From contig JAGXAY010000011.1 in assembly GCA_018971385.1 (NCBI GenBank), positions 1-37,997 of the forward strand: a DNA stretch of 37,997 bases, written 5' to 3'. Origin of the DNA: Acidobacteriota bacterium. GTDB taxonomy: Bacteria > Actinomycetota > Acidimicrobiia > Acidimicrobiales > RAAP-2. Below the pieces are notes generated by a model. The model had not been told where the DNA came from, did not search any database, and was given only the letters and a program-made list of their open reading frames with translations. Position numbers and translations under genes: made by a program. Numbering within the stretch: position 1 is the stretch's first letter; each line of letters opens with the position of its first letter. This document shows positions 13,725-20,015 of the stretch, one piece after another.

Positions 13725-13730
13725 AGACTA
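13725..13730 (-). promoter_or_regulatory. -10 element TAGTCT for the GH3 gene, overlapping the hisIE stop codon
   Basis: On the minus strand TAGTCT is six bases before ATG 13718. Its TAG (13730-13728) is the stop codon of hisIE. Confidence 0.5.
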
Positions 13731-14279
13731 GGACCCCGTACTACGACGGCGAAGTTCGTCATCGACCGCCGCCGGATCGACGCCCGCCGACCGCCAGAGG
13801 AGGTGAAGGTGAAAGAGAAGATCTGCCGACTCCTCCACCAGTCGCTCCGAGGTCTGGGCCAGGGCCGCGACGATGACCTCGGCCGACTCCTCTCCCACCT
13901 TCTGAGCGAGAAAGGTGGGACCCTTCGCGAGCGAGGAGGAAACGTAGGACCCCTCAGCCTGTTCGGCTTCTCGTCGCAGAATCCTCCGCCAGAGCCACGG
14001 GGTAAAGCAGGAGGTCGAACCGTCGTGGCACGTCGGCCCGTCCGCGTGGACCGTAATTAACAGGGCGTCCTCGTCACAGTCGGGCACGATGTCACCCACG
14101 TGGAGAAAGTTCCCCGACGTCTCCCCCTTCTCCCACAGACGTTGACGGGAGCGGGAGAAGAAGTGCACCCGGCCCGACGTTCGTGTCGCGGCGAGGGCCT
14201 CGTCATCCATCCATCCGAGCATGAGAACACGCCCGGTGATCTCGTCTTGAATAATGGCCGCTCGTAACCCGTCACTCAT
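13728..14279 (-). CDS. hisIE: Bifunctional HisI-HisE: phosphoribosyl-AMP cyclohydrolase / phosphoribosyl-ATP pyrophosphatase
   Basis: A 183-residue fusion carrying histidine steps 2 and 3. The N-terminal half (about 1-100) is HisI: MLGWMDDEAL, the FFSRSRQRLWEKGETSGN stretch and the metal-binding DCDEDALL and GPTCH. The C-terminal half (about 105-183) is HisE with the nucleotide-pyrophosphohydrolase motif KVGEESAEVIVAA and EESADLLFH. HisIE fusions are common in many bacteria, though many actinobacteria keep the two apart. It is last in the operon and overlaps hisF by four bases (ATGA). Confidence 0.95.
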   Translation of the reverse strand: MSDGLRAAIIQDEITGRVLMLGWMDDEALAATRTSGRVHFFSRSRQRLWEKGETSGNFLHVGDIVPDCDEDALLITVHADGPTCHDGSTSCFTPWLWRRILRREAEQAEGSYVSSSLAKGPTFLAQKVGEESAEVIVAALAQTSERLVEESADLLFHLHLLWRSAGVDPAAVDDELRRRSTGS

Positions 14280-15028
14280 CGTCGCTCCTCCACTCGCCGC
14301 AGGGATATCCCGAGCGCACTGATCTCGGCGCGAAGCCCGGGTAACCCTTCGGGGTTCTCGTGCACAATCGAGGCGACGAGCGCGGCGTCGGTCACGCGGA
14401 GGGCGGCCGCCACATCCGCCGCCGATCCGGCCCCACCCGACGCGATAACCGGCACGTCCACCGCGTCGCGCACGGCGGCCGTGAGGACGAGGTCGTACCC
14501 GGACCGTTGTCCGTCGCGCTCAATCGACGTCAGCAGAATCTCCCCCGCTCCGCGAGCGGCCGCCTCCACGGCCCAGGGCACCGTCCGTAAGTCACTCGCG
14601 CGCCGGCCCCCGTGGGTGTAGACCACGTCGGCTCCGGCGTCGATGGCGACGACGACCGCCTGGGATCCGAATCGTTCCGCGATGCGAGTAATCAGCTCAG
14701 GTTCGGTAATCGCCGCCGAGTTCACTGAGACTCGGTCGGCCCCCGCCTCGATGATCCGTGAAGCGTCTTCGAGAGTCCTGATCCCTCCCCCGACGGTGAA
14801 GGGAATCTCGATCACGTCGGCCACCCGTTCGACCACCTCCACCAGGGTGTCGGCGCCATGAGGTGTCGCGGTGATGTCGAGGAACACCAGTTCGTCGGCT
14901 CCCCCGGCGCTGTAGTGACGGGCCAACTCGACGGGGTCTCCGACGTCGCGCAGGGCGACGAAACTGACCCCCTTCACCACGCGACCGTCGGCGACGTCGA
15001 GGCAGGGAATTAGGCGCGGGAGAGGCAT
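14276..15028 (-). CDS. hisF: Imidazole glycerol phosphate synthase, cyclase subunit
   Basis: A 250-residue TIM-barrel cyclase that works with HisH to make imidazole glycerol phosphate and AICAR. The N-terminal PCLDVADGRVVKG contains the catalytic Asp near residue 11, and VVVAIDAG holds the second catalytic Asp near 130. The phosphate-binding segments VGGGI and ASGGAG are present. Length is standard. It overlaps hisH by 19 bases and hisIE by four, so the synthase subunits are translated from tightly coupled frames. Confidence 0.97.
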   Translation of the reverse strand: MPLPRLIPCLDVADGRVVKGVSFVALRDVGDPVELARHYSAGGADELVFLDITATPHGADTLVEVVERVADVIEIPFTVGGGIRTLEDASRIIEAGADRVSVNSAAITEPELITRIAERFGSQAVVVAIDAGADVVYTHGGRRASDLRTVPWAVEAAARGAGEILLTSIERDGQRSGYDLVLTAAVRDAVDVPVIASGGAGSAADVAAALRVTDAALVASIVHENPEGLPGLRAEISALGISLRRVEERR

Positions 15029-15564
15029 CGATCCAAAAAGTTCAGGCCGGCGGCGTCACTCTTCTCCGGGTGAAACTGCACCCCGATAAATGCACCATGT
15101 TCGACCACCGCCGTCCAGCCTTCACTGGTGGCGACGCGGTGGGGAGATTCGGCGACAAAGGAGTGGGCGAAGTAGTAGGCCTCATCCCAGGGGTCGACAA
15201 TCGCCCACCCGAGTCGGGGAACGCGGGGCGCGTCTAGGCGGATGACGACGCCGGCGAGGAGGCCCAGGCCCTTCACCCCGCCGTCTTCCTCCGAGGCTTG
15301 GAGAGCCAGCTGCATGCCGAGACAAATTCCGAGGATGGGATGAGAGGCGGCGAAGCGCTCCCGCAAAGCGGAGGCCGCGCCAGTTTCCTCGAGGTGCTCC
15401 ATCGCGCTCTTGGCCGAACCCACTCCGGGCAGAATCACCCAGGGGGCGTTCAAAATGAGTTCGGGTTGAGAGCTCACCACACTCGTCCGACCGAGGTGTT
15501 CTAGCGCAGCCCGCACGGAATGGGTATTCCCCGCCCCGTAGTCCACGACGACCACGTCGCTCAT
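15010..15564 (-). CDS. hisH: Imidazole glycerol phosphate synthase, glutamine amidotransferase subunit
   Basis: A 184-residue class I glutamine amidotransferase (somewhat shorter than the usual 195-210) that supplies ammonia to HisF. The triad is visible: the nucleophile Cys in GICLGMQL and the His and Glu in FHPEKS. The N-terminal DYGAGNTHSV and LPGVGSA segments are typical. Its end overlaps the start of hisF by 19 bases, and its ATG overlaps the hisCB stop by four. Confidence 0.95.
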   Translation of the reverse strand: MSDVVVVDYGAGNTHSVRAALEHLGRTSVVSSQPELILNAPWVILPGVGSAKSAMEHLEETGAASALRERFAASHPILGICLGMQLALQASEEDGGVKGLGLLAGVVIRLDAPRVPRLGWAIVDPWDEAYYFAHSFVAESPHRVATSEGWTAVVEHGAFIGVQFHPEKSDAAGLNFLDRCLSRA

Positions 15565-17084
15565 AGGGAGCCCTTCGTGGAAGGAATCACGCTGCCCGAC
15601 GGCGTGAGTGCTTGCGCGATGGCCCGACCCATGGCCTTAAAGGCCGCTTCGGCCACGTGGTGGGCGTTGCTCCCGGTCGCGGTGAGGTGAATGGTGATGC
15701 GAGCCGCCTGGGCTAGGGACTCGAGCGCGTGGGCCGCCATACCGGGATCGGGTGAGATATCGATCACCCACACCGCTCGACCCGAGAGGTCGACGACCGC
15801 GTGAGCGAGGGCCTCGTCCATCGGAACGCGGGCCTCCCCGTAACGGGTGATGCCTCGACGATCCCCGAGCGCCTGGGAGAGGGCGTCTCCGAAGGCGCGG
15901 AAGGTGTCCTCCACGGTGTGGTGGTCTCCGGTCTCGAGGTCGCCGACGCCGGTGAGAGTGAGGTCCAGTCCCCCGTGGAAGGCGAGCTGTTGCAGCATGT
16001 GATCGTAGAAGCCCTCGCCCGTGTCGATAAAGACGCGGCCCTCCCCCGGAGCTCGCAAACGAACCTGGAGTCGAGTCTCGGCCGTCGCCCGAGTGACTCT
16101 CGTCCACTCGGGATCGGCGGGCGCTCCGTGGAGCTCTTGACGAAGAGCGGAGAGGAGAACATCGTCGTCGAGGGGGTCGCGCACCGAGAGGCGTAGCCCC
16201 CCGGGATAGGCCCGCGCGACGACTCCGTAGGGCAAGAGTCGATCCACCATTGTCTGGGGATCGTCCATGTCGAGGAAGAGAAAGTTGGTCGAGGAGTCGC
16301 GGGGAGCGAGTCCCAGTCCTCGCAACTCGCCCGCCAATCGTTCCCGCTCCGCGATCTCCTTCGAGACGTCGACCGGGGTGTCGAGAGCCGCGAGGGCGAG
16401 CGCCGCCGAAAGAGCTGACACGCTCAGGGGGGCTTGCCGAGAGGACAGGATGCGGGTCCGTCGCTCGTCGGCGAGGGCGTAACCCACCCGCGCTCCGGCG
16501 AGACCGTAGGCCTTCGAGAAGGTTCGCAAAATGATGGCCCCCTCGGAGATGCGAGCCGTCTCGTCCACGCCGGCGTACTGGGCGTACGCCTCGTCAATAA
16601 CGAGCTGACCTCGAAGACCTTCGGGGATGTCGACCATCTCGCCCGTGGGATTATTCGGGCGACACACGTAGACGAGGTCCGCCTCACGGGGATCGTCCAC
16701 GAGTCGAGCACCGGCCATGAGAGCCGCGTAGCGGTACATCGAATACGTGAACTGGGGCACCGTCGCCACCGTTCCGCCGGCCGCGAACACCTGAGCTACG
16801 AGCACAATGAACTCGTCACTGCCCGCCCCGAGGGCCACCTGGTCTACGCCGACCTCGTGGAGAGCGGCGATGCGCTCGCGCAACGGGGCGTAGCGGCCCC
16901 GGTCGTACTCGTTGATCTGGGCGAGCGCGCGCGCGAGGGTCGCCGGACGAGCCGACACCGGAGGCATCGAAGCCACGTTGCCGTCGAAACGAATCATCTG
17001 TTCTGGACGCAGACCCACTCGAGCCGCGAGTTCGGCGTTCGAGGGGGGCCACTGGTAGGCGTCGAGGGGTTCCGGTGTGCTCAT
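15561..17084 (-). CDS. hisCB: HisC-HisB fusion: histidinol-phosphate aminotransferase / imidazoleglycerol-phosphate dehydratase
   Basis: A single 507-residue frame joins two histidine enzymes. Residues 1-318 are HisC: RPNNPTGE, IDEAYAQY, the PLP-lysine in RTFSKAYGLAG (Lys191) and the C-terminal GLRLSVRDP with the substrate-phosphate Arg. Residues 327-507 are the HisB dehydratase with its manganese-ligand motifs DHML (361), DHHTVED (387-393) and SNAHHVAEAAFKAMG (472-486). The link is only about ten residues. Reaction order is inverted in the chain: HisB acts before HisC. The well-known HisB fusion partner in enterics is a phosphatase instead. No internal stop or frameshift is present in the given sequence. 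It overlaps hisD and hisH by four bases each. Confidence 0.95.
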   Translation of the reverse strand: MSTPEPLDAYQWPPSNAELAARVGLRPEQMIRFDGNVASMPPVSARPATLARALAQINEYDRGRYAPLRERIAALHEVGVDQVALGAGSDEFIVLVAQVFAAGGTVATVPQFTYSMYRYAALMAGARLVDDPREADLVYVCRPNNPTGEMVDIPEGLRGQLVIDEAYAQYAGVDETARISEGAIILRTFSKAYGLAGARVGYALADERRTRILSSRQAPLSVSALSAALALAALDTPVDVSKEIAERERLAGELRGLGLAPRDSSTNFLFLDMDDPQTMVDRLLPYGVVARAYPGGLRLSVRDPLDDDVLLSALRQELHGAPADPEWTRVTRATAETRLQVRLRAPGEGRVFIDTGEGFYDHMLQQLAFHGGLDLTLTGVGDLETGDHHTVEDTFRAFGDALSQALGDRRGITRYGEARVPMDEALAHAVVDLSGRAVWVIDISPDPGMAAHALESLAQAARITIHLTATGSNAHHVAEAAFKAMGRAIAQALTPSGSVIPSTKGSL

Positions 17085-18136
17085 CGGCGGGCCGTCGCTT
17101 TGTGCTGGGGCATACCCTCAATGTCGGCGAGCGCCTCAATGGTGGGGGCCATGCGCTCCAATCCTTCCTTCGTTACCCGCTGGATAGTGAGAGGCTTCAT
17201 AAAGGCCTCGAGGCCGAGGCCTCCCGTCGAACGGGCCCAGCCCCCCGTGGGGAGGACGTGATTGCCTCCGGTCGCGTAGTCTCCCGCCGGCACCGGAGAG
17301 TAGGGGCCCACAAAGATCGCCCCCGCGTGGCGAATTCTCGTCGCGAGGGACTCGGCGCGCGGTCCGAGTAGGGCCACGTGCTCGGCGGCGTAGCCGTCAA
17401 TCGCCTCGAGGGCCGCGTCGAGGTCGTCTCCCACCCACACCACGTGAGCCTTGGAGTCGGGCCCGTGCTCCATCTGGGCAGCGCACTCTTGAGCGACGAT
17501 GCGCTCGTCGAAGCCCTCGTCGGCCGCGACCACCACCTCACTCGGCCCGGCGGGCAGGTCAATCGCGACGTCCCGACTGACGAGTAGTTTGGCCGCGTTC
17601 ACCGCACCGCCGCCGGGCCCAAAGATCTTGTCCACCGGGGCGAGAGACTCCGTCCCGTACGCCATGGCGGCGATGGCCTGAGCGCCTCCGAGGGCCCACA
17701 CCTCCTCAATTCCGAGGAGGGCCGCCGCAGCCGCCACCGCTTCCGATCCCTCCGGCGGCGTGCAGACAACGATGCGACGAACGCCCGCCACCTGAGCGGG
17801 AACCGCGGACATGATGAGGGAGGAGACCAATCCTCGCGGGACGTAGAGCCCCACCGAGTCGAGCGGCACCCACCGCCTCTCGAGGACCACCCCCGGATTC
17901 ACCTCCAGGGTGAGATCACTCGGTCGCTGAGCGGCGTGCCAACGCCGCACGGCGGCGGCGGCGTCCACAATGGCCTGGGTCGGTATGTCCCCGTACGCGC
18001 GTGCGCGAGACGGCGCCCCCTCCACCCCGTCGAAGGTTTCACTCCAGTAGCGCAGCGCAGCATCACCGCGCTCGCGTACGTCGCTCACAATCTCGTCGAC
18101 GGAGATCGGGCGAGAGGTCGTTACCGTTTTACTCAC
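17081..18136 (-). CDS. hisD: Histidinol dehydrogenase, compact form
   Basis: Catalyses the last two steps, histidinol to histidine, with NAD and zinc. At 351 residues it is much shorter than the usual 430. All key residues are found relative to the E. coli enzyme: zinc ligands Gln221 and His224 (QMEHG), the catalytic pair Glu252-His253 (AEHVAL), Asp286 (GDYATG) and His345 (MPQHK). Spacings from His253 to Asp286 (33) and on to His345 (59) equal those in E. coli, but Gln221 to His253 is 32 residues instead of 68. About 36 residues are therefore missing there, and the N-terminus is about 38 shorter. It overlaps both neighbours by four bases, so the start is well defined. Confidence 0.92.
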   Translation of the reverse strand: MSKTVTTSRPISVDEIVSDVRERGDAALRYWSETFDGVEGAPSRARAYGDIPTQAIVDAAAAVRRWHAAQRPSDLTLEVNPGVVLERRWVPLDSVGLYVPRGLVSSLIMSAVPAQVAGVRRIVVCTPPEGSEAVAAAAALLGIEEVWALGGAQAIAAMAYGTESLAPVDKIFGPGGGAVNAAKLLVSRDVAIDLPAGPSEVVVAADEGFDERIVAQECAAQMEHGPDSKAHVVWVGDDLDAALEAIDGYAAEHVALLGPRAESLATRIRHAGAIFVGPYSPVPAGDYATGGNHVLPTGGWARSTGGLGLEAFMKPLTIQRVTKEGLERMAPTIEALADIEGMPQHKATARR

Positions 18137-18987
18137 GGCATCATCCTTTCGACGGGTAGCGTGAGTAGGGAACTCGCACCACGGGCTTTCAATTGGGGCA
18201 GAAGGGACCAGACCGACGAGGCCGGGACCAGGGCGTGAACGGCGACGAGCCCCGATCGAGCGAGATCCATCACGGTCGGAGAGCCGGCCGTCGGCAATAG
18301 TTCGGTCACCTCGCCGAGTTGAGCGGCCGGAATGTTAAAGAGCAAGTAGCGACTGGCCCGCGCTTCAATGACGGAGGCGAGAAGCGTGGTCAGGGTGTCC
18401 TGCGCCTCGTGGTCCGCATCGTGCCGACCGATGAGGACGGCCTGGGATGAAAACACCACGCCCAGCGAAGTGAGCCCATTGGTGCGAAGGGTCGAACCCG
18501 TGGAGACGAGGTCGATGATGGCGTCGGCGAGTCCTAAGCGCGGCGCAATCTCTACTGATCCACTGACGCGCACCACCTCCGCGTTCAAGTGGTGTTGCTC
18601 CAGCCAGGTTGTGGCGAGGTGCGGGTGAGACGTCGCGATGCGTCGGCCGTTCAGGTCGTGGAGACCGGTCGCGCCATCTTCCCGGGGAACCGCGGCGTGA
18701 AGTGAGCAGTGTCCAAATCCCAACTCCAAGAGAACGTCAACGTCAAAGTCGCGTTCCCGTACGAGGTCGAGTCCGGTAATGCCGCAGTCCACGATGCCGT
18801 CGGTCACGTATTCGGGAACGTCGTCGGCCCGAACGAAGAGAAGGTCAATGTCCGCGTTACGACAGAACGTTTGGAGGACCCGTTCACCGGGGCTCTGGGG
18901 GTCTACTCCGCTCGCTTCGAGCAGGTTCCACGACGGTTCGCGGAGCCTCCCCTTGGAGGGGAGGGCGAGAGTTAAGCGGCGGGTCAC
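18133..18987 (-). CDS. hisG: ATP phosphoribosyltransferase, long form
   Basis: A 284-residue HisG that commits ATP and PRPP to histidine synthesis. The N-terminal LALPSKGRL, the TDGIVDCGITGLD segment and the PRPP loop IIDLVSTGSTLRTNG are clear. The length and the C-terminal region (about residues 205-284) fit the long form, whose ACT-like domain gives feedback inhibition by histidine. It does not need a separate HisZ subunit. It is the second gene of the operon, overlapping the regulator gene and hisD by four bases each. Confidence 0.96.
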   Translation of the reverse strand: MTRRLTLALPSKGRLREPSWNLLEASGVDPQSPGERVLQTFCRNADIDLLFVRADDVPEYVTDGIVDCGITGLDLVRERDFDVDVLLELGFGHCSLHAAVPREDGATGLHDLNGRRIATSHPHLATTWLEQHHLNAEVVRVSGSVEIAPRLGLADAIIDLVSTGSTLRTNGLTSLGVVFSSQAVLIGRHDADHEAQDTLTTLLASVIEARASRYLLFNIPAAQLGEVTELLPTAGSPTVMDLARSGLVAVHALVPASSVWSLLPQLKARGASSLLTLPVERMMP

Positions 18988-19298
18988 GACCCAACTCCAT
19001 CAAGAATGGCTCGGTACCCGCCCGCCCCCTCGCGCAGCCAGTGAGCCACTCGGGTCACCGTGGCCGTCGAGGCACCAGTACGTCTCGAGATCTCGTGATA
19101 CGAGATGCCCTCGTCCACTAACCGGGCAACCTGGAGCCGCTGGCCCATGGCGTCGAGTTCAGCGCTCGTGCACAGGTCACGTAGGAACGCGGCCATCAAC
19201 TCGGTGCTCGTGACGGCCACGAGGCTCTGAACTAATTCGTCAAAACGTCGCTGAGTCTCCTGGTGGGCCTCGGCGGGAGGGACGCGTCCACTAGTCAT
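18984..19298 (-). CDS. TrpR-family regulator (YerC/YecD type), first gene of the his operon
   Basis: A 104-residue TrpR/YerC-like DNA-binding protein. The helix-turn-helix region is at about residues 52-84: LDAMGQRLQVARLV, then ISYHEISRRTGASTATVTRV, where the second part is the recognition unit. This family has been linked to histidine gene regulation in Firmicutes (YerC/HisR). Here the position as first gene of the hisG operon, with its stop overlapping hisG by four bases, supports an autoregulated histidine repressor. The candidate operator is at 19308-19319. TAGCAT lies exactly six bases before the ATG, so the operon mRNA is probably leaderless. Whether histidine is the co-effector is inference. 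Confidence 0.88.
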   Translation of the reverse strand: MTSGRVPPAEAHQETQRRFDELVQSLVAVTSTELMAAFLRDLCTSAELDAMGQRLQVARLVDEGISYHEISRRTGASTATVTRVAHWLREGAGGYRAILDGVGS

Positions 19299-19304
19299 TT
19301 CAGT

Positions 19305-19322
19305 ATGCTAGCGTGTTAGTAC
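19305..19322. promoter_or_regulatory. Divergent leaderless promoters with a central trp-operator-like dyad
   Basis: The minus-strand -10 TAGCAT (19310-19305) is six bases before ATG 19298. The plus-strand -10 TAGTAC (19317-19322) is six bases before ATG 19329. Between and across them lies CTAG-CGTG-TTAG (19308-19319). E. coli trp operators have the core CTAG-N4-CTAG; the spacing is the same here, and the right flank TAC also matches. The dyad centre, 19313.5, is the exact midpoint of the two start codons. Confidence 0.6.
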
Positions 19323-19328
19323 GTTAAT

Positions 19329-20015
19329 ATGCAACTAATTCCCGCACTCGACCTCATCGGCCACGACGCCGTTCGCTTAGAACAAGGTGACTATCAGCGA
19401 GTGATTTTTCGCCGACCCGTCGACGAGGTACTTCCCAAAATCTTGGAGCTTCACCCGGATCTACTCCACGTCGTGGATTTGGAAGGTGCCCGAGAAGGTC
19501 GGGTTCGTGACGATGTCATCGGCTCCCTCCTGGTCGCGTCCGAGGGCATTCCTCTTCAAGTCTCGGGCGGTATTCGCAGTATTGAGACGGCTCGCCATCT
19601 ACTAGAGCTCGGCGTCCATCGGGTCATCGTGGGAACCGCCGTGTGGGCGACCCCCCAGGGTCTCGTGGAGTTCGCCGACGCCCTCGGCGACGCCCTGGTC
19701 GTTGCCGTCGACGTCCGGAATGGTCGCGTGGCGACGGGCGGGTGGCTGGAAGACTCGGGGTTGGACGTCGACGATGCGGTAGCACGCTGCGCCGAGGCGG
19801 GAGTGCGACGACTTCACGTGACCGCCATCTCTCGAGACGGAACGATGAGTGGCCCCGATCTCGACCTTTATCGGCAGGTGTGTGGACGAGGTCCCGCCGT
19901 GATCGCCGCCGGGGGAGTTCGCGGTGATGACGACCTTCGCGCACTCGAGGACGTCGGGTGTGAAGCCGCCGTCATGGGACTAGGGCTTCTCCAACAACTC
20001 GGATTGACGACATAA
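19329..20015 (+). CDS. hisA: Phosphoribosylformimino-AICAR-phosphate isomerase
   Basis: A 228-residue TIM-barrel isomerase for histidine step 4. The start IPALDLIGHDAVRLEQGDY holds the catalytic Asp8, VAVDVRNGRV holds the central Asp, and SRDGTMSG holds the second catalytic Asp equivalent to E. coli Asp176. The sequence reads like a plain HisA rather than the actinobacterial bifunctional PriA. The TDIS motif before SRDGT is TAIS here. It is divergent from the rest of the his genes and shares their control region, so all are probably regulated together. It is slightly shorter than the usual 240-245. Confidence 0.93.
   Translation: MQLIPALDLIGHDAVRLEQGDYQRVIFRRPVDEVLPKILELHPDLLHVVDLEGAREGRVRDDVIGSLLVASEGIPLQVSGGIRSIETARHLLELGVHRVIVGTAVWATPQGLVEFADALGDALVVAVDVRNGRVATGGWLEDSGLDVDDAVARCAEAGVRRLHVTAISRDGTMSGPDLDLYRQVCGRGPAVIAAGGVRGDDDLRALEDVGCEAAVMGLGLLQQLGLTT

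Follow-up and report, generated by a model that had tools for sequence, protein, structure and literature searches.

How can 30 bp between two divergent start codons serve two sets of histidine genes at once, and what kind of regulator would act there? The window (the whole stretch of DNA analysed here, 37,997 nucleotides) comes from an uncultured soil/peat actinobacterium and carries hisA back to back with a second operon, hisR-hisG-hisD-hisCB-hisH-hisF-hisIE, with overlaps of 4 to 19 bp between adjacent genes (Table 1). A preliminary description of the locus had placed a dyad, CTAG-CGTG-TTAG (19308-19319), exactly midway between the start codons, which begin at 19298 (-) and 19329 (+), and had read it as a trp-operator-like site through which one dimer of a TrpR relative would block both sides. 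The dyad is present and its centre (19313.5) is the midpoint, and the two hexamers taken as -10 elements, TAGCAT (the reverse complement of 19305-19310) and TAGTAC (19317-19322), do lie six bases from a start each. Within the operon, hisC and hisB form one reading frame of 507 aa, with a similar fusion in locus L134, and hisD is short (351 aa) with its TIGR00069 match split into two stretches, which suggests an internal loss that retained the core motifs.

Table 1. Features of the hisR/hisA locus, in window coordinates; operator sites are predicted
Feature	Position	Strand	Basis or remark
hisIE	13728..14279	-	NF002747
hisF	14276..15028	-	TIGR00735
hisH	15010..15564	-	TIGR01855
hisC-hisB fusion	15561..17084	-	N-terminal TIGR01141, C-terminal PRK00951 hisB models; each below its own cut-off
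hisD	17081..18136	-	TIGR00069
hisG	18133..18987	-	TIGR00070; 4-bp overlap with hisR
hisR (YerC/HisR repressor gene)	18984..19298	-	TIGR02531, PF01371
Tandem HisR site, -8 bp, weaker (predicted)	19296..19315, centre 19305.5	.	7.6 bits in window; genus mean 6.5
hisR/hisA spacer, 30 bp	19299..19328	.	same length in nearly all loci of the genus; 72 different sequences
Central HisR operator site TATGCTAGCGTGTTAGTACG (predicted)	19304..19323, centre 19313.5	.	18.4 bits, top of window
hisR -10, TAGCAT, six bases from ATG	19305..19310	-	TANNNT in 72/72 distinct spacers
Candidate hisA -10, TAGCGT	19309..19314	+	TANNNT in 70/72 distinct spacers
Tandem HisR site, +8 bp (predicted)	19312..19331, centre 19321.5	.	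17.4 bits in window; genus mean 6.1
hisA	19329..20015	+	TIGR00007, E=3.6e-52, below cut-off of TIGR00007
hisR -35, TTGCAT (reverse complement of hisA ATG-CAA), N18 from -10	19329..19334	-	conservation

Both profile matches and layout bear out the view that the his operon begins with the gene of a TrpR-superfamily repressor. The 104-aa window regulator lies above the cut-off of the YerC/YecD model TIGR02531 (77.6 bits, cut-off 42.2, E=7.6e-22) and below that of the TrpR equivalog model TIGR01321 (35.7 bits, cut-off 67.25), and it is the sole PF01371 protein of its genome (E=9.8e-23). Among solved structures the nearest to it are chains 3frw, 3kor and 3g1c (E~1e-21 to 1e-20); 3g1c is the HisR of Eubacterium eligens on which Ashniev et al. 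drew (2022; PMC9413887). In 22 sequences the helix-turn-helix stretch GASTATVTR is invariant or nearly so, and the HisR signature is present, with Ala-Thr-x-x-Arg conserved and Thr replacing Ile79 of TrpR (residues as given in PMC9413887). Judged by its sequence, the regulator is a YerC/HisR member of the TrpR superfamily and not a TrpR equivalog. The suggestion that a TrpR relative represses his genes was sound and is already in print, HisR being the TrpR-family histidine repressor of Firmicutes and some other phyla, though the published cases are not of this lineage or layout (Ashniev et al., 2022; PMC9413887). We also observed that the N-terminal arm MTSG(K/R)V (19281-19298 in the window) is nearly invariant as protein in the genus with variable third codon positions, the exception being AGT for Ser3 (53/67); the arm may form a dimer-dimer contact in a tandem array.

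The likeness to trp operators fared less well. In the alignment of relatives CTAG-N4-TTAG is not conserved, and even CTAG-N4-YTAG is kept in just 2 of 72 distinct spacers. Within the window, CTAGNNNNTTAG occurs once against 0.11 expected (and at least once in 11 of 100 shuffles) and YTAGNNNNYTAG once against 0.46 expected; by itself the 12-mer is unremarkable, and the case depends on comparison. A search of the window for the E. coli core CTAGTTAACTAG found no close match, and 19304-19323 agrees with the published trp operator consensus TGTAcTnGTnnACnAgTACA at 10 of 16 specified letters, fewer than the best chance match in the window (12/16). Both the literal CTAG-N4-TTAG and the TrpR consensus were rejected as the conserved signal. 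That a true TrpR-type system, with a regulator sensing tryptophan or binding trp-operator letters, has been moved beside the his genes is hardly credible to us: it would account for the shared superfamily, the 8-bp tandem architecture known from trp operators and the CTAG-N4-TTAG of this one genome, but the regulator passes the YerC cut-off and fails the TrpR one, the trp-like letters are not kept, and linkage is to his genes throughout.

Comparison points instead to a HisR operator. We trained a symmetric 20-bp weight matrix (consensus palindrome TGTTTTAGCATGCTAAAACA) on 24 HisR loci outside this genus, the window's own genus being excluded from training, and applied it to the spacers of this genus. 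The relatives compared are 22 same-genus genomes together with another 79 named contigs, most of them from Acidimicrobiaceae or Actinomycetes MAGs and many with isolate names of peat or permafrost type (bog, fen, palsa); the two sets can overlap, so distinct spacers are the counting unit. The best matrix position is centre 19313.5 in 72/72 distinct spacers. In the window the best score outside the spacer region is 6.4 bits, and 400 simulated 38-kb windows gave a mean maximum of 6.5 bits and a top value of 17.2, none of them reaching the score of the central site, which lies far beyond chance because of this comparative evidence. A scan by pattern, the form of search used genome-wide, gave no match to TGTNNTAGCRTGCTANNACA at three or fewer mismatches in the 2.1-Mb genome other than the site in the window.

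The genus spacer consensus is YAnYATGCTARCRTGCTAnnACGCTRCT, with seven nearly invariant columns over the 72 distinct spacers and a conserved core ATGCTA-RC-RTGCTA-nn-ACGCT; the best sites outside the genus have a TTTA-N6-TAAA core. The window site shares just 12 of 20 letters with the class palindrome, and 6 of 14 with the published HisR consensus cacTTTAnnnnnnTAAAgtg placed at 19304, a consensus that is lineage-specific and not strictly defining, as is usual for operators of the HisR family (PMC9413887). A 20-bp palindromic operator upstream of his genes and conserved among relatives, the feature expected of a HisR member, is nevertheless found. The dyad is real and functional-looking, and by its conserved letters a predicted HisR operator rather than a TrpR-type one; the proposal of an operator between the divergent his promoters holds for the site centred at 19313.5 and fails for the trp letters, the conserved operator having a HisR consensus of its own.

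Other searches around the locus added little. A covariance model without structure (R1) was too weak as a genome scanner, with no match in the window's genome and, in relatives, mostly the same spacer; its one unrelated match (G338:C93) is AT-rich DNA without his genes. As for further targets among histidine-type transporter genes, neither SBP_bac_3 locus has a site, and the window has no Rfam match that would suggest regulation by RNA through a T-box or His leader.

The central site has company. In the genus, the mean matrix score is positive only at centres 19305.5, 19313.5 and 19321.5 and negative at all others. Because the palindrome overlaps with its own copy at a shift of 8 bp, self-overlap was simulated; the resulting null at +8 has a mean of -10.4 with 1% of values above 6. 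Tandem half-sites in 8-bp register, a TrpR-type trait, are thereby found at the sequence level only. A simpler arrangement, in which a single HisR dimer sits at 19313.5 and the 8-bp flanking repeats are incidental or serve the promoters, would fit the greater strength of the central site (genus mean 16.3 vs ~6 for the flanks) and the little flanking signal of some non-genus loci (L136). It fits poorly with flank scores far above the self-overlap null, with the strong right flank of the window itself, and with the longer arrays seen in some loci outside the genus, where four sites stand in 8-bp register (L149 and L152-L156 among them; in L156 GCTA recurs five times at 8-bp steps), and we regard it as rather unlikely, if a serious contender. 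Control of both sides from one place, as first proposed, is the best reading, but with three conserved 8-bp-phased sites one dimer is probably too few.

The spacer must also hold promoters. On the hisR side, TTGCAY-N18-TANNAT-N6-ATG is found in 73 of 76 loci; in the window it reads TTGCAT-N18-TAGCAT-N6-ATG, with the -35 element inside hisA codons 1-2, and we infer that the hisR transcript is leaderless. Where hisA codon 2 encodes Gln it is always CAA (67/67), against 34% CAA among the Gln codons of these his genes, a count from related species whose naive p-value is not to be read literally; the codon appears to be held as CAA because the hisR -35 lies in hisA codons 1-2. For hisA the assignment is less clear. 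The hexamer at 19317-19322, proposed as its -10, has T at the last position in only 4 of 72 relatives and lacks TANNNT in 68 of 72, and judging by this pattern it was probably misplaced, with 19309-19314 as the alternative candidate. TTGCCA-N18-TANNNT was also considered as the hisA promoter; it fits many relatives but neither the window (CGTCCA) nor the loci in which hisA and hisR are detached.

Could two overlapping divergent promoters explain the conservation alone, the dyad arising from facing -10 boxes with no repressor involved? The spacer is short, the hisR -10 and -35 are among its most conserved elements, and its conservation is indeed owed partly to promoters, the two constraints not being fully separable in 30 bp. 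Yet the conserved C19322, G19323, C19324 and T19325 lie outside the -10 boxes and extend the 8-bp repeat, and the palindrome fits the published 20-bp HisR architecture. Exactly 30 bp separate divergent hisA and hisR in 95 or more same-genus loci, with few exceptions; in other families of the class HisR is present too, divergent to hisA where the locus holds hisA, and there the same palindrome lies 25-145 bp from hisA, at longer and variable spacing unlinked to promoter geometry. Of 79 HisR loci, 72 score above 10 and the other seven have their maximum no more than 8 bp from where it is expected, against no site in 27 his loci of relatives without HisR (maximum 7.9, mean -0.6).

Three relatives in which hisA and hisR are separated act as natural experiments on the same question. 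In L107 and L120, split by an inserted reading frame of ~180 aa, a full operator array stands at each promoter, hisA having its own copy; in L114, split by ~190 bp, the operator is kept at hisR and none is found on the hisA side, so hisA control is dispensable there. In all three, hisR retains its operator with TTGCGT at the same N18 position, and hisA codon 2 is not CAA in L107 and L114. Taken with the points above, these loci make an explanation by promoters alone very improbable. The inserted gene (2400-2942 in L107, around 2400-2940 in L120) encodes a membrane-like protein.

Elsewhere in the sample, L061, L066 and L096 have divergent operators in the spacer (e.g. ATGCTACTCTACTA) that score 5-9 at the expected place, possibly reflecting coevolving HisR specificity. 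Neither the other families sampled from the same order nor the other genera sampled from the same family yielded a HisR. The same-genus genomes without hisR (G017, G018, G094) are also without hisG; G017 is only 75% complete, and in G018 and G094 (96-97% complete) HisR and HisG were not found, nor was HisA in G018. G018 and G094 have probably lost the pathway along with its regulator and become histidine auxotrophs.

Sequence comparison thus documents the family of the regulator, a conserved operator that is phased at 8 bp and nearly unique in the genome, and the promoter of hisR. On this basis we consider it very likely that the 30-bp spacer works as a promoter region for both directions fitted within a HisR operator, so that one site would shut both operons, hisR included. 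When histidine is plentiful, HisR, as the product of the gene that comes first in the hisGD(CB)HF(IE) operon, would bind the spacer, its dimers occupying the 20-bp palindrome centred at 19313.5 and probably, cooperatively, the 8-bp neighbours on either side. Bound HisR would cover the -10 element of hisR and that of hisA wherever it plausibly lies, and would therefore exclude RNA polymerase from both promoters, turning off the whole pathway together with the repressor's own gene (autoregulation); as histidine falls, both operons would open. By analogy with HisR and TrpR we expect that the protein binds here, that histidine is its co-repressor, that both sides are repressed and that the tandem sites are filled cooperatively. 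A bolder extension, which we put forward tentatively and at somewhat less than even chances, is that HisR of Acidimicrobiia is a cooperative tandem oligomer on 8-bp-phased arrays of two to five half-site repeats, and that in one genus the operator, two promoters and a -35 inside the neighbouring gene's start were compressed into a frozen 30-bp module, the genome's sole histidine switch, which may have come, along with the his cluster, from elsewhere in the class. HisG of the genus is 44% identical to HisG of other HisR-bearing families vs 31% to that of sister genera and families; the tree has long branches and does not fix the root, so the regulated cluster may have been transferred or may have been lost differentially.

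The prediction extends protein-based histidine repression to Acidimicrobiia. It provides an operator that is sharply delimited and occurs in many natural variants, and a minimal model of a TrpR-fold repressor closing two promoters at once on 8-bp tandem arrays. The loci with separated hisA and hisR, like the silent constraint that keeps codon 2 as CAA, allow the link of promoter DNA to coding sequence to be tested. HisR (YerC) regulons have been described in Firmicutes, Coriobacteriia, Synergistetes and Proteobacteria, and for HisR of Ruminococcus gnavus binding to the site required histidine; within Actinobacteria HisR was reported only in Coriobacteriales/Eggerthellales, never adjoining his genes, and the main text of that study, the sole HisR-regulon paper we found, is silent on Acidimicrobiia, on a divergent layout and on tandem operators (Ashniev et al., 2022; PMC9413887). 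The HisR family, then, is known; new are the type of operator, the compact layout shared by the two operons and the lineage. With published HisR regulons the locus shares the protein family, a 20-bp palindrome with a conserved TA per half-site, and the predicted control of his genes and autoregulation, and hisR is the operon's first gene as in published Proteobacteria and Peptococcaceae. It differs in its lineage, in the single 30-bp spacer serving divergent hisA and hisR-his, and in its half-sites, TGTnTTAGC or ATGCTAgC with 8-bp tandem repeats in place of the outer cac..gtg of Coriobacteriales/Eggerthellales. E. coli TrpR, for its part, binds trp operators as tandem dimers 8 bp apart (1TRR), and has in common with the system proposed here the helix-turn-helix fold, the contact residues (Ala79-Thr80-x-Thr82-Arg83 invariant) and the 8-bp half-site register; the operator letters differ, and here the expected effector is histidine and the targets are his genes, arranged divergently.
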